Source: Sideroxydans sp. (GTDB lineage: Bacteria > Pseudomonadota > Gammaproteobacteria > Burkholderiales > Gallionellaceae). Taken from it: a stretch of 64,000 bases of DNA. Under the pieces are notes generated by a model that saw only the letters and a program-made list of their open reading frames with translations, did not search any database and was not told the DNA's origin. Positions 10,916 through 18,297 of this stretch are shown piece after piece. Location of the stretch: assembly GCA_027310725.1 (NCBI GenBank), contig DAIDAG010000068.1:1-64000 (forward strand). Reading direction: 5' to 3'. Each line of letters opens with the position of its first letter. Within the stretch, counting starts at the first letter, position 1. Made by a program: the position numbers and the translations under genes.

Positions 10916-11251
10916 TCAAACGCAACCGGTGGGCTTGGGCAGACCGGCAATCTTGCATGCCTGCTTGCCTGGACCGTAAGGAAACAGGCCATACAGGTAT
11001 TCGCTGTTGCCTTTTTCCGCACCGAGTTTCTTGCCGATAGCCTTGGTCAGAACACGCACTGCCGGAGCGATCTGGTATTCCTCGAAATATTCGCGCAGGA
11101 AGTTGACGACTTCCCAGTGCTGATCGGTCATGGTGACATTCTCAGTCTGTGCGATGTAATTCGCGACCTCGGTGTTCCAATCGGCCAGATTGGTCAGATA
11201 ACCTTCTTCATCAGTTTCGTAACTTTTACCGCCGACTTCGATTGTTGACAT
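10916..11251 (-). CDS. dsrC: DsrC sulfur carrier
   Basis: C-terminus GPGKQACKIAGLPKPTGCV with both conserved cysteines. Confidence 0.97.
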   Translation of the reverse strand: MSTIEVGGKSYETDEEGYLTNLADWNTEVANYIAQTENVTMTDQHWEVVNFLREYFEEYQIAPAVRVLTKAIGKKLGAEKGNSEYLYGLFPYGPGKQACKIAGLPKPTGCV

Positions 11252-13431: not shown

Positions 13432-14727
13432 TCAGGCAGCTTGCTTTTTGGCTTTGATTTTAGCGACTTCGTCATCCCATCCATCGGTACGGACGTAGGG
13501 GTTCATGCGTGGTGAATTGATCATCGCAGGATCGACTTCGACCTCCATTGCATCCAGGAAGTTGGCCAACCCGATACGCTCGATCATCTCGCCGGTACGC
13601 TCGTGTTCCAATGCGTTTTCGGCAAAGAAATCAATAGTGCGCTGCGCGAAATCGACCAGCTTCTCGACTTCTTCTTCAGTGTCCAGCTTCATGAACGGAA
13701 TGACCACGGTGCCCATCAGGCCACCGATCTTCAGGTGGCTCTTGCCACCAACCAGTACGCTTGCGCCCTTGTCCTTGCCTGGAGCCAATGCACCGGTCAT
13801 CACGTTGACACAGTGCATGCAACGCACGCAATCCTGATTGTCGATCTCGATCCCGTGTGTATCGCTCACTGCCACACTGGAAATATGCTCACCTTTTTTG
13901 ATCTTCTTGAGTTCCTTGACCTGGAAGGTCTTGGTCGGGCAACGTGCAACGATGTCGTTCACCAGCTCATCCATGCCGTGCTTGGCGAACCATTTCTTGG
14001 CCAACCCCTCATCGGTACGGATGTTATCGCGCCAAGTGCCGATCACGGCCATGTCGGAACGTTGAATTGCATTCATACAATCGTTCGGGCAGCCGGAGAA
14101 TTTGAACTTGAACTTGTATGGCAGCGAAGGACGGTGCAAGTCATCCAGGAAAGTATTCAGAACCGCACGGTGCGCATTTGCCTCGTCGTAGCAAGACTGT
14201 TCGCAACGTGCCGCACCTACGCAAGACATCGAGGTGCGTACCGCAGGGCCAGCGCCGCCGAGGTCAAAACCCATCTCGTTGATCTCGTCAAAGGCCTTTT
14301 GCACATTTTCGGTAGTGCAACCCTGGAACATGATGTCGCCGGATTGGCCATGGAACGCGATCAGGCCCGAGCCGTGCTTTTCCCAGATATCGCAGAATTT
14401 ACGCAGTGTATCGGTATCGTAGTGCATGCCGGGAGGAGGCATAACGCGCAAAGTGTGGAATTCTGCAGCATCCTTGTAGACGGCCTGGCCGTTCTCATCC
14501 TTGAGTTCGGTAAAGCGCGGAATCACGCCGCCGCCATAACCGAAGACGCCAACGGTACCGCCCTTCCAGTATCCCTTGCGAGTCTTGTACGATGTCTCAA
14601 GTTGCCCGAGCAGATCGACCATGAGGTCTTTGTCTTTGGCGAGCCGCTTCAGGCCAGTCACAAAACTCGGCCACTTACCTTTTTCCAGCTCATCCAGATT
14701 CGGAGTGTCATACATTTTTTTTGCCAT
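13432..14727 (-). CDS. dsrA: dissimilatory sulfite reductase alpha subunit
   Basis: TSMSCVGAARCEQSCYDEANAHRAVLNTFLDDLHRPSLPYKFKFKFSGCPNDC signature. Confidence 0.98.
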   Translation of the reverse strand: MAKKMYDTPNLDELEKGKWPSFVTGLKRLAKDKDLMVDLLGQLETSYKTRKGYWKGGTVGVFGYGGGVIPRFTELKDENGQAVYKDAAEFHTLRVMPPPGMHYDTDTLRKFCDIWEKHGSGLIAFHGQSGDIMFQGCTTENVQKAFDEINEMGFDLGGAGPAVRTSMSCVGAARCEQSCYDEANAHRAVLNTFLDDLHRPSLPYKFKFKFSGCPNDCMNAIQRSDMAVIGTWRDNIRTDEGLAKKWFAKHGMDELVNDIVARCPTKTFQVKELKKIKKGEHISSVAVSDTHGIEIDNQDCVRCMHCVNVMTGALAPGKDKGASVLVGGKSHLKIGGLMGTVVIPFMKLDTEEEVEKLVDFAQRTIDFFAENALEHERTGEMIERIGLANFLDAMEVEVDPAMINSPRMNPYVRTDGWDDEVAKIKAKKQAA

Positions 14728-14898
14728 GATATTTTCCTTTCAAGTCGCGTTGAGCTACATTGCCCGGCGGGGCCTGGAATTCCTAATGTCGTACGGGCTC
14801 TGGTACTGAAATCACAACCACCGACCCGGTTTCTTAATGGTTCCGCATGGTACGGCGCAATATCAAGCCTAACTATCACCCTTAGCGACTATCCAAAG

Positions 14899-14914
14899 TA
14901 ACCCTTAAGGGGGG
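14899..14914. promoter_or_regulatory. candidate 7-2-7 palindromic operator TAACCCT-TA-AGGGGGG between dsrA and the divergent Cas6-like operon
   Basis: Read directly; 15 of 16 positions identical to the site at 28563-28578 between soeA and sat. Confidence 0.6.
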
Positions 14915-15030
14915 TACTTTTCACATCCCCAGTAGTATTCCAATCAGGGCGGTAATAGCGCTAGACTTGGCGCATACATAGGACTAGTCGATTCTCGGTC
15001 CGGTGCTTTTAACTAAACTTAAGGGAAAAC

Positions 15031-15249
15031 ATGGCGAAAATCACGGAATTGAACAAGATCCATGTTCCTCTGGGGGGGCAACAAATCGAGCTGCAACAGG
15101 TCGACCATACGGAAGACGGCATGAGCATGTTGCGTGTTCGCATCCGCGAGGGCAAGCGATTCACCATCTTCGATATTGATCCGGCAACGGCAGGACAATG
15201 GGCGGCAACCATGTTGCAATGGGCCAACTCACAAGGCAATGACAAGTGA
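15031..15249 (+). CDS. small conserved-looking protein of unknown function
   Basis: 72-aa ORF; next ORF begins with a 4-bp overlap (GTG at 15246). Confidence 0.75.
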   Translation: MAKITELNKIHVPLGGQQIELQQVDHTEDGMSMLRVRIREGKRFTIFDIDPATAGQWAATMLQWANSQGNDK

Positions 15250-15848
15250 CAGCCCCGCACACTGAAATGATCGATGTGGTTTTCGAAATAAGCGGCGGAA
15301 CATTGCCCACCGCTTATCCCTATACATTATGGGACGAACTGGTCCGGCTCGTCCCGCAACTCGGGGAAGATGAAAATGTCGGCGTCATCCCCTTGCGCAT
15401 GGCCACAAGCAAGGAAGGAATGTTGCTCCCTAAACGCGCCAAGCTGGTGTTGCGGTTGCCGCATGCGCTTGCCGATATCGTTTCCGACCTGGCACAGAAA
15501 CAAATGCGTGTGGCAGATAGTCTGATACAGCTGGGTTCATGCAAAAAAAGGCCAATATCGCACTACCCTACCCTGCATTCACATTTGGTGACAGGCGCCG
15601 ATGATGAAATCGCATTCATGCAAGAAGTGGAATCGGCTCTCGCAGGGATGGGAGTCGAAGCAAAATTGATCTGCGGCCAACGCCTCACCCTGACAAACGG
15701 TGAACGCGCGATCAAAGGATACAGCCTGGTTTTGCATGATCTCAGTCCGGAAGATTCGTTACGCGTGCAATATTCCGGATTGGGCAAGGAACGGCGGCTT
15801 GGCTGCGGTATTTTCGTGCCGTACAAGGTCATCTCCGGTCTGGAGTGA
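15246..15848 (+). CDS. Cas6/Cmx6-like (type I-MYXAN Cas6 family) RAMP protein
   Basis: N-terminal VDVVFEISGGTLPTAYPYTLWDELVRLVPQL..GVIPLR and C-terminal Gly-rich GLGKERRLGCGIFVPYK resemble the Cmx6 family; 200 aa. Confidence 0.75.
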   Translation: MTAPHTEMIDVVFEISGGTLPTAYPYTLWDELVRLVPQLGEDENVGVIPLRMATSKEGMLLPKRAKLVLRLPHALADIVSDLAQKQMRVADSLIQLGSCKKRPISHYPTLHSHLVTGADDEIAFMQEVESALAGMGVEAKLICGQRLTLTNGERAIKGYSLVLHDLSPEDSLRVQYSGLGKERRLGCGIFVPYKVISGLE

Positions 15849-15876: not shown

Positions 15877-16206
15877 ATGGGATACACAGTTGCAGGAAAC
15901 GAATTGGAAACCAATGATGACGGTTTTCTGTTGGAACCGGATTACAGCGAGGAAGCGGCAAACGTGATCGCGGCGGCTGAAGGGATCGAACTGACCCCCA
16001 AACACTGGGAAGTCATTAACTACATGCGCGAGCAGTATCGCGAACATGGCCACACACCCAATTTTCGCAACATGCTGAAAGACATCAACGAATTCTGGCC
16101 GGAAGCCGACAGCAAGGCATTGTACGATCTGTTTCCGATGGGTCCAGCCAAACAGGCTGCAAAGGTCGCCGGATTGCCGCAACCTCTGGGCAAAGGCGGC
16201 TACTGA
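15877..16206 (+). CDS. DsrC/TusE-like protein lacking both C-terminal cysteines (RspA-like)
   Basis: DsrC-like core GNELETNDDGFLLEPDYSEEAANVIAAAEGIELTPKHWEVINYMREQY; C-terminus GPAKQAAKVAGLPQPLGKGGY has no Cys. Confidence 0.88.
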   Translation: MGYTVAGNELETNDDGFLLEPDYSEEAANVIAAAEGIELTPKHWEVINYMREQYREHGHTPNFRNMLKDINEFWPEADSKALYDLFPMGPAKQAAKVAGLPQPLGKGGY

Positions 16207-16344
16207 AACGACGCATCAGCAAGGGTGCACCGTGTCCGTACCCAGATGCGGGCAATTGACTAGGCAAAAAGTCGCGAACGGAATCGGCACTACCAAAAGC
16301 AGTGAACCGACACCAGCCAAATCGCTGGTTATAAGGAGATGAAG

Positions 16345-16824
16345 ATGGGAATGGATATGGTCAACGTCGTACTCGACATGAAGGGGCTTTCCTGCCCCAG
16401 GCCGCTCATCGGGGCGAAACGCATGGTCGATGAGCTTGCCGCAGGGCAGGTGTTACTGCTGGTGTCGGATTGTCCTGGAACACAGGATGATCTGTTCGCC
16501 TGGGCGAAACTGACCGGCAACCAGATACTGAAAACCGAAAAGATGCCGGATGGCGGAACCGGGTATCACATCCAGAAAGGCAAAGGCCATGCACACAACG
16601 CCAACGTCACGCTGGACATACGCGGCGCAGTCTGTCCCGGCCCCATCGTCGAGGCCAAAAAGCTTCTGAACGGGATGCAAACAGGCGAAGTGTTGAAACT
16701 GGTCAGCGACTGCCCGGGCGTACAGTCAGACATCGGCGGCTGGGCTTCCGCCACCGGCATGACTTTACTGGAAACCGTTGAATCTGCGGCCGGCGTGCAC
16801 GAGTTCTACATTCGTAAAGGCTGA
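16345..16824 (+). CDS. tandem TusA-domain protein (TusA-TusA fusion)
   Basis: Two TusA repeats: DMKGLSCPRPLIGAKRMVDEL and DIRGAVCPGPIVEAKKLLNGM, each followed by LVSDCPG. Confidence 0.92.
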   Translation: MGMDMVNVVLDMKGLSCPRPLIGAKRMVDELAAGQVLLLVSDCPGTQDDLFAWAKLTGNQILKTEKMPDGGTGYHIQKGKGHAHNANVTLDIRGAVCPGPIVEAKKLLNGMQTGEVLKLVSDCPGVQSDIGGWASATGMTLLETVESAAGVHEFYIRKG

Positions 16825-16827
16825 GCC

Positions 16828-17424
16828 TTGCGCATCAAAAGCAGCTGGTTCAAGGATGGCCGCGAACGTACTCCGCAAGAGATATCGGACGCGCTGGCGT
16901 TCGTCGTCTCGCGTATTGCCGATAATGCCCTGAAGAACACGCGGAAGGCGAAATTCGAAATTGAAGTCGGTCCCCAATATTTCGAGTTCCTCGCCGAATT
17001 CTCGCTCTTCCTCATCATTTCCGCAGACCGTATTGTCTACGGCAAACTTTCGGAGGCAGACAGGTTCGTTTTTACCAGCAATCTGGCGAACCGCGTGGCA
17101 GAAACCTATGCCGAGAATCGCAGCCGCCTGCTCGTCGAAGACATTAAAGAGTGCAAGCGGCGCTTCATCGATCTGCTCAACCAGCGCGCAGGCGAATACG
17201 CCGAATTCGGCTACGATGAAAACGGCCCCGCTTATACCTTCTATCGCTATCTCGCCTATTGCATCGGCGAGATCATGACCGATGAAGACAGCGGCTGGAT
17301 CATCGACCAGATCATCAGCTTCGAAGCGCCCGAGGCAATACAGATGATCGAAAAGACCCTGCGCGGCTTATATGAAGCCGAACCGAAGAAGACGCGCCGC
17401 CGCACATCGACCAGCGGGGACTGA
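16828..17424 (+). CDS. protein of unknown function, mostly helical
   Basis: 198-aa ORF (TTG start), 3 bp after the TusA-TusA stop and directly abutting the TauD-like gene. Confidence 0.7.
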   Translation: MRIKSSWFKDGRERTPQEISDALAFVVSRIADNALKNTRKAKFEIEVGPQYFEFLAEFSLFLIISADRIVYGKLSEADRFVFTSNLANRVAETYAENRSRLLVEDIKECKRRFIDLLNQRAGEYAEFGYDENGPAYTFYRYLAYCIGEIMTDEDSGWIIDQIISFEAPEAIQMIEKTLRGLYEAEPKKTRRRTSTSGD

Positions 17425-18297
17425 ATGAAAAGCCCGTTCGATCTGAGTGATACCGAAAGTTACCTGCGCTGGCGCGAGCAGAAACTCGCTTCCGCGCCGA
17501 AATCGGTGAATGAACTCATCGTCGAAGTGCATGATCCGCGCGCACTGACGCCGCTTGAACACAATGCGCTGGCCGAGTGTGTTCGCCGTAGCAACATGGC
17601 GATCTACGCCAGCCCCTTCCACGATGCCGACACCGAAATCCCGCGCTTGCTGGGCGCCCAATTCGGTCTGGAAAGCCTTGATGCCAACTGGCTGGCGGGC
17701 GAAGACGGCATCTCCGAGATCCGCGTATTCGATAACGGTACGCGCCAAAATTACATCCCCTACACCGACAAACCGATCAAGTGGCACACCGACGGATATT
17801 ACAACCCGCCGGAACGCACTATCCGCGGCATGGTGCTGCATTGCGTGCGCACGGCCAGCAGTGGCGGAGAAAATCAACTGATGGACCACGAGATGGCATA
17901 TCTGCAGTTGCGCGACGAGAACCCGCAACACATCCTGGCATTGATGCAAGCAGATGCGATGACCATTCCGGATCGGGTGGATGAGACGGACGGAGTGCGT
18001 ACCGCACAGAGCGGCCCGGTGTTCTCTCTGGACAGTGGCGGAAATCTGCATATGCGCTACACCGCCCGCACCCGCAGTATCGAATGGAAAAAGGATGCGG
18101 CAACCTTGGCCGCGGTGGCTGCATTGGAACGGCTACTGGCATCCGATACGCCGCACATCTTCCAAGCCCGCCTCGATCCCGGCATGGGTCTGCTATGCAA
18201 CAATGTGCTGCATGACCGCAGTGCATTTATCGACGACCCCGGCCAGCCTTCGCGTTTGCTTTATCGCGCACGTTATCTGGACAGGATGAACACTTGA
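17425..18297 (+). CDS. TauD/TfdA-family Fe(II)/2-oxoglutarate-dependent dioxygenase
   Basis: KWHTDGYYNPPERTIRGMVLHC metal-binding motif and distal NVLHDRSAF histidine. Confidence 0.88.
   Translation: MKSPFDLSDTESYLRWREQKLASAPKSVNELIVEVHDPRALTPLEHNALAECVRRSNMAIYASPFHDADTEIPRLLGAQFGLESLDANWLAGEDGISEIRVFDNGTRQNYIPYTDKPIKWHTDGYYNPPERTIRGMVLHCVRTASSGGENQLMDHEMAYLQLRDENPQHILALMQADAMTIPDRVDETDGVRTAQSGPVFSLDSGGNLHMRYTARTRSIEWKKDAATLAAVAALERLLASDTPHIFQARLDPGMGLLCNNVLHDRSAFIDDPGQPSRLLYRARYLDRMNT

Follow-up and report, generated by a model that had tools for sequence, protein, structure and literature searches.

Genomic context

The DNA analyzed here, referred to as the window, is a 64,000-nucleotide stretch from the genome of a Sideroxydans species (3.0 Mb, 65% complete). 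It contains a dsrABEFHCMKLJOP cluster whose first gene, dsrA, lies on the reverse strand (13432–14727; TIGR02064, 492 bits, above cut-off). An operon on the forward strand diverges from dsrA. It opens with a small DUF6967 protein of 72 residues (15031–15249; PF22295, 106 bits), whose gene overlaps the start of a Cas6-like gene (15246–15848) by four bases. The DsrC-like gene that is the subject of this study follows (15877–16206), and then a TusA-TusA fusion with both CPxP motifs retained (16339–16824; PF01206, 127.7 bits in two stretches), an all-helical protein of 198 residues (16828–17424) and, as the last gene, a TauD-family dioxygenase-like protein (17425–18297; PF02668, 66.9 bits) that is linked in dsr loci throughout the class. 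The earlier note had placed the DsrC paralog opposite dsrA in a divergent operon, and this location is borne out, with the operon starting one gene earlier, at DUF6967.

The 198-residue protein was modeled with AlphaFold2 at a pLDDT of 88.6. None of its 28 orthologs has a match in Pfam, and the search of the PDB gave no fold match at E <0.001. It represents an undescribed family that is conserved in dsr loci, and these loci are found in both beta- and gammaproteobacteria.

Alignment of 11 intergenic regions from the family revealed a non-coding element between dsrA and the operon (14868–14975) that is conserved and contains inverted repeats; it reads TATCACCC...AACCCTTAAGGG...GTAGTATTCCAA...TAGACTT. 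This element, which includes the palindromic AACCCTTAAGGG, is likely a regulator site. Promoter and terminator scans performed no better than on shuffled sequences.

An intact DsrC fold without cysteines

The DsrC-like open reading frame extends from an ATG at 15877 to a TGA ending at 16206 on the forward strand and encodes 109 residues, none of which is a cysteine, with a calculated pI of 4.6. Its C-terminal end is AKQAAKVAGLPQPLGKGGY / KQAAKVAGLPQPLGKGGY, the last residues being GKGGY. Membership in the DsrC/TusE superfamily is established by matches above the cut-offs of both Pfam DsrC (PF04358, 118.8 bits; cut-off 24.9) and NCBIfam TIGR03342 (99.4; cut-off 53.5), and by a Foldseek E-value of 3.7e-9 to the structure of Allochromatium vinosum DsrC (PDB code 1yx3). 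The AlphaFold2 model has a pLDDT of 90 and falls below 50 only at residues 106–109. Its closest solved structures are DsrC proteins, with 1yx3 at the top (TM-score 0.87). The DsrC fold and the arm motif KQ..KxAGLP are thus retained despite the loss of both C-terminal cysteines, as the earlier note had recognized from the sequence when it described a paralog with a well conserved fold and neither redox cysteine. The protein has no cysteine and is hence not a DsrC proper, which carries a penultimate CysA together with CysB; it belongs with the RspA-type DsrC proteins, in which both C-terminal cysteines are missing. TusE was considered as an identity and was ruled out, since there is no penultimate cysteine and the NF008562 score of 90.7 compares with a cut-off of 191.

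Orthologs are found throughout the sulfur-oxidizing beta- and gammaproteobacteria, with sequence identities of 75–97% within the Gallionellaceae and approximately 50–77% across the order. Pairwise comparison with seven relatives gave dN/dS values of 0.03–0.10, similar to those of DsrC itself; several of the dS values exceed 1, so that these ratios are rough. The purifying selection and the wide occurrence of orthologs show that 15877–16206 is not a chance reading frame. Pseudogenization in relatives, named in the earlier note as refuting evidence, was not seen at these dN/dS values and at 75–97% identity across the family, and the pseudogene reading is ruled out. The gene therefore encodes an intact, selected protein of the DsrC fold without either redox cysteine.

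Relation to other DsrC-family proteins

A canonical DsrC, which the earlier note had also reported in the window, is encoded at 10916–11251 on the reverse strand (PF04358, 159 bits). It ends GKQACKIAGLPKPTGCV / ACKIAGLPKPTGCV, with both cysteines present. The two proteins share the fold, the C-terminal arm motif and approximately 44% sequence identity within the genome, whereas the protein at 15877–16206 lacks both redox cysteines, has a KGGY tail and falls in a separate clade. It shares the DsrC family with TusE, but TusE keeps the penultimate cysteine.

The host genome contains five DsrC-family genes. One of them (L004, at G000:C48:23800-24090) is a second paralog without either C-terminal cysteine; its tail, SDPSFGWAG, is different, and it lies outside the KGGY clade, so that "Cys-less DsrC" is not one kind of protein. 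Of two further paralogs (L003 and L005, on G000:C12 and G000:C71), one has a cysteine at the CysB position only and one has the penultimate cysteine only, as in TusE. Every combination of the two cysteines is therefore present in this genome. Four extra DsrC-family genes, whose role is unresolved, are known from the A. vinosum genome (PMC3368242), and SUP05 phages carry a DsrC that is missing one cysteine (PMC4164917). The phage dsrC_1 group resembles the present protein in being a DsrC homolog that lacks a C-terminal cysteine; it differs in having lost the second C-terminal cysteine alone, in an insertion of 7–8 residues and in its viral context (PMC4164917).

The protein at 15877–16206 and RspA are alike in the absence of both redox cysteines and in their occurrence in sulfur oxidizers. 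They are not coextensive as groups: ten of the KGGY proteins described below have a cysteine at the CysB position, whereas another Cys-less paralog of this genome falls outside the clade. RspA is reportedly the label applied to Cys-less DsrC proteins by Venceslau et al. 2014.

A C-terminal KGGY tail defines a clade

The region that would contain CysA is replaced by the tail KGGY (16192–16203, forward strand), which corresponds to the unstructured residues 106–109 of the model (pLDDT <50). KGGY forms the C-terminus of all 162 distinct orthologs collected and is invariant in their alignment, and no high-scoring member without it was found. The CysB position is occupied by a cysteine in 10 of the 162. 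The scan of genome contigs used the KGGY pattern, and the loci from that scan are biased toward it; no such restriction applied when 369 genomes of the class were searched with a profile. In the phylogenetic tree, all KGGY proteins fall on one side of a branch with moderate support (89/45), and this side is split from the two-cysteine DsrC proteins with support of 98/87. The protein at 15877–16206 has both the KGGY end and a position within the clade. KGGY may thus be used in annotation as a diagnostic C-terminal motif that tells the clade apart from the sulfur-carrying DsrC proteins.

A viral origin was also considered. Three of the five matches in a scan of viral contigs are KGGY proteins (IMG/VR contigs L223, L224 and L225), with no Cas6-like or dsrAB gene adjoining in the DNA examined; the L225 protein is adjoined by a canonical DsrC and a TusA. 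These contigs may represent host sequence or viral metabolic genes. In another genome (locus L239, G181:C58), the KGGY gene is directly upstream of dsrL and the Cas6-like gene is on a different contig.

The Cas6-like neighbor

The gene directly upstream, whose stop codon (15848) is separated by 28 bases from the DsrC-like start, encodes a Cas6/Cmx6-family protein of 200 residues on the forward strand. The label "Cas6-like" in the earlier note proved correct and is its most informative clue. The protein matches PF09559 with 192 bits, passes the curated cut-off of TIGR02807 (140.9 versus 98.85), is recognized by the Cas6 models of PADLOC and is homologous to the Cas6 of a type I-B CRISPR complex (PDB 8fcj, chain B; E-value 8e-18).

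The dsr-linked proteins were aligned with CRISPR-type Cmx6 sequences, for which a small set of five plasmid-encoded cyanobacterial proteins, most of them beside cas3, was used. The glycine-rich loop Q..G.G..R..GCG.F, in Cas6 an RNA-contact element, is nearly invariant in the dsr-linked proteins. A histidine following helix 1, which is presumed to be catalytic in CRISPR-type Cas6, is present in all five CRISPR members, whereas other residues dominate at this position in every dsr-linked group (Gly40 in the present protein). A second histidine (position 24 here) is kept in 39/39 distant members of the class and is a tyrosine in 68 of the 70 Gallionellaceae-group sequences. The Cas6-like gene also evolves faster than its neighbors, with dN/dS values of up to 0.39. 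In view of the altered active site and the faster sequence evolution, the protein may no longer act on RNA.

The similarity to Cas6/Cmx6 of type I-MYXAN systems and to the I-B Cas6 of 8fcj thus covers the full length of the sequence and includes the glycine-rich loop; in contrast to these proteins, the neighbor is linked to dsr genes, has no array within the window, is not linked to Cas1 and lacks the CRISPR-type histidine.

Pairing of the two genes across genomes

The DsrC-like and Cas6-like genes are present in identical sets of the 150 genomes of the family (84 and 84). A strong dsrA match was found in 81 of these 84 genomes, and the sole dsrA-containing genome of the family without the pair (G005) has a contig that ends approximately 520 bases past dsrA. 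Among 369 genomes of the class, 106 contain both genes, 12 the Cas6-like gene only, 4 the KGGY gene only and 247 neither (odds ratio 545, p = 7e-73), such that a KGGY protein is present in 106 of the 118 genomes with PF09559. In the same genomes, the presence of PF09559 is unrelated to that of Cas1 (odds ratio 1.4, p = 0.13). These counts treat the genomes as independent and are made optimistic by relatedness; it is the contrast between the KGGY and Cas1 tests that matters. In 89 of the 95 cases in which one contig carries both genes, the DsrC-like gene directly follows the Cas6-like gene in the same orientation, with a median gap of 137 bp.

All 20 family loci sampled share this arrangement of the Cas6-like, DsrC-like and helical genes with dsrA. 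The DUF6967 gene is present in 20 of 20 family loci and was found in none of 20 loci from distant members of the class, where the typical order is TauD-like, Cas6-like and DsrC-like, again opposite dsrA. The linkage of the pair to dsr is retained even in genomes of approximately 1 Mb (L213, L214 and L221). The association with neighboring genes proposed in the earlier note therefore stands for the Cas6-like gene, as a near-obligate pairing; for the TusA-TusA fusion it is common in the family and order and fails as a universal rule.

The pair is not strictly obligate, since orthologs lacking PF09559 exist (G726, and G893 outside the class). Eight dsrC-dsrM-dsrK loci sampled outside the class have canonical DsrC only, and the module is thus not needed for every Dsr pathway. 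Both observations indicate that the module was added to the oxidative Dsr pathway in particular lineages and does not belong to its core. Genetically, the DsrC-like protein and a non-CRISPR Cas6-family protein evolve together as a pair, within an operon divergent from dsrA. Conserved linkage is in itself no proof of a complex. The near-constant pairing suggests an unrecognized module, linked to RNA, that would control sulfur oxidation or be accessory to it.

Functional implications

The holding of persulfide or trisulfide by DsrC depends on its cysteines, and the Cys-less protein, having none, cannot carry either. A regulatory role, as envisaged in the earlier note, is plausible. In the reading that we favor, and hold tentatively, the protein is a redox-inert mimic of DsrC that couples sulfur-relay partners to an RNA-binding Cas6-like protein. 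The retained fold and arm motif argue that DsrC's partners are retained as well, the invariance of the new tail points to a novel contact at the tip, and the Cas6 fold of the partner argues for RNA. From DsrC the mimic would have kept the C-terminal arm and the surface that binds partners, and it would bind a relay partner (DsrAB, DsrEFH or TusA) or compete with DsrC for one. It would work with the Cas6-like protein, which would bind RNA, probably a structured element of the dsr transcripts, and both together would tune dsr expression, or the way in which the oxidation machinery is assembled, to the load on the sulfur relay. A more far-reaching form of this proposal, which we regard as somewhat doubtful, is a CRISPR-independent ribonucleoprotein that regulates dissimilatory sulfur oxidation in sulfur oxidizers of the beta- and gammaproteobacteria. 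A domesticated Cas6-fold RNA binder and a redox-dead KGGY DsrC would make up a conserved complex, which would sense how far the sulfur relay is occupied and control dsr mRNA.

Ranking close behind the redox-inert mimic, although itself rather unlikely, is a modulator that acts at the protein level only. The DsrC-like arm would insert into DsrAB, or the protein would dock on DsrEFH, DsrMK or DsrL, and it would thereby serve as chaperone, decoy or brake; the fold of the Cas6-like protein would have been put to another use, with RNA binding lost. The kept arm motif and fold agree with this, as do the new invariant tail at the place of CysA, which in DsrC reaches the DsrAB active site, the KGGY gene beside DsrL in one genome, and the absence of the CRISPR-type histidine from the dsr-linked Cas6 proteins; the near-invariant glycine-rich loop of these same proteins argues against it. 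An incidental link of DsrC to a genuine crRNA-processing Cas6 would explain the good scores with PF09559, TIGR02807 and the PADLOC models, but there is no CRISPR array within the window, no Cas1 was found in the 65% complete host genome, PF09559 shows no association with Cas1 across the 369 genomes, the CRISPR-type histidine is missing, and the two genes are adjacent in 89 of 95 pairs. We regard the CRISPR reading as ruled out, with a negligible residual probability.

A transcription regulator that binds DNA between dsrA and the operon through a helix-turn-helix is less likely than either the redox-inert mimic or the protein-level modulator, and we consider it improbable. The conserved intergenic element with its inverted repeats would suit such a protein, and A. 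vinosum DsrC was reportedly found by Grimm et al. 2010 to bind upstream of dsrA. However, the Cys-less protein is acidic in all 21 orthologs checked (pI 4.6–5.7), its winged helix-turn-helix similarity to LexA and Zur is weak and below threshold, with the LexA-type match common to canonical DsrC, and DNA binding leaves the kept arm and the invariant C-terminal tail unexplained. The direct DNA binding via a DsrC-like helix-turn-helix suggested in the earlier note thus finds little support. Still less probable is a role of the KGGY tail as a substrate, which would be conjugated, cleaved or modified so that the protein serves as a signal of sulfur load. The tail is absolutely invariant, disordered and contains GG, as do the ends of the sulfur-carrier proteins ThiS and MoaD, but it ends in GGY rather than GG, and the Pfam and NCBIfam profiles revealed neither an E1-like nor a protease gene in the operon.

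Cys-less DsrC proteins (RspA) have been noted before; we know of no description of RspA that includes a Cas6-like partner, the KGGY hallmark or the whole operon. A literature search on RspA, on Cas6 with dsr and on Cys-less DsrC, with most subscription journals outside its coverage, returned no description of the Cas6-family pairing or of the KGGY hallmark, and the novelty of both is provisional. The control of dsr genes in sulfur oxidizers is poorly understood, and a Cas6-family protein that dozens of genera conserve in their dsr loci, even in genomes of approximately 1 Mb, is a clear candidate for a component of this control.

Solitary dsr-linked PF09559 proteins match the Cas6 models of PADLOC and, in the case of the window, exceed the TIGR02807 cut-off, so that pipelines can be expected to report false CRISPR components. 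Because automatic annotation labels such proteins as CRISPR in this way, it is probable that many of the "type I-MYXAN Cas6" calls made on solitary genes in Gammaproteobacteria are incorrect.
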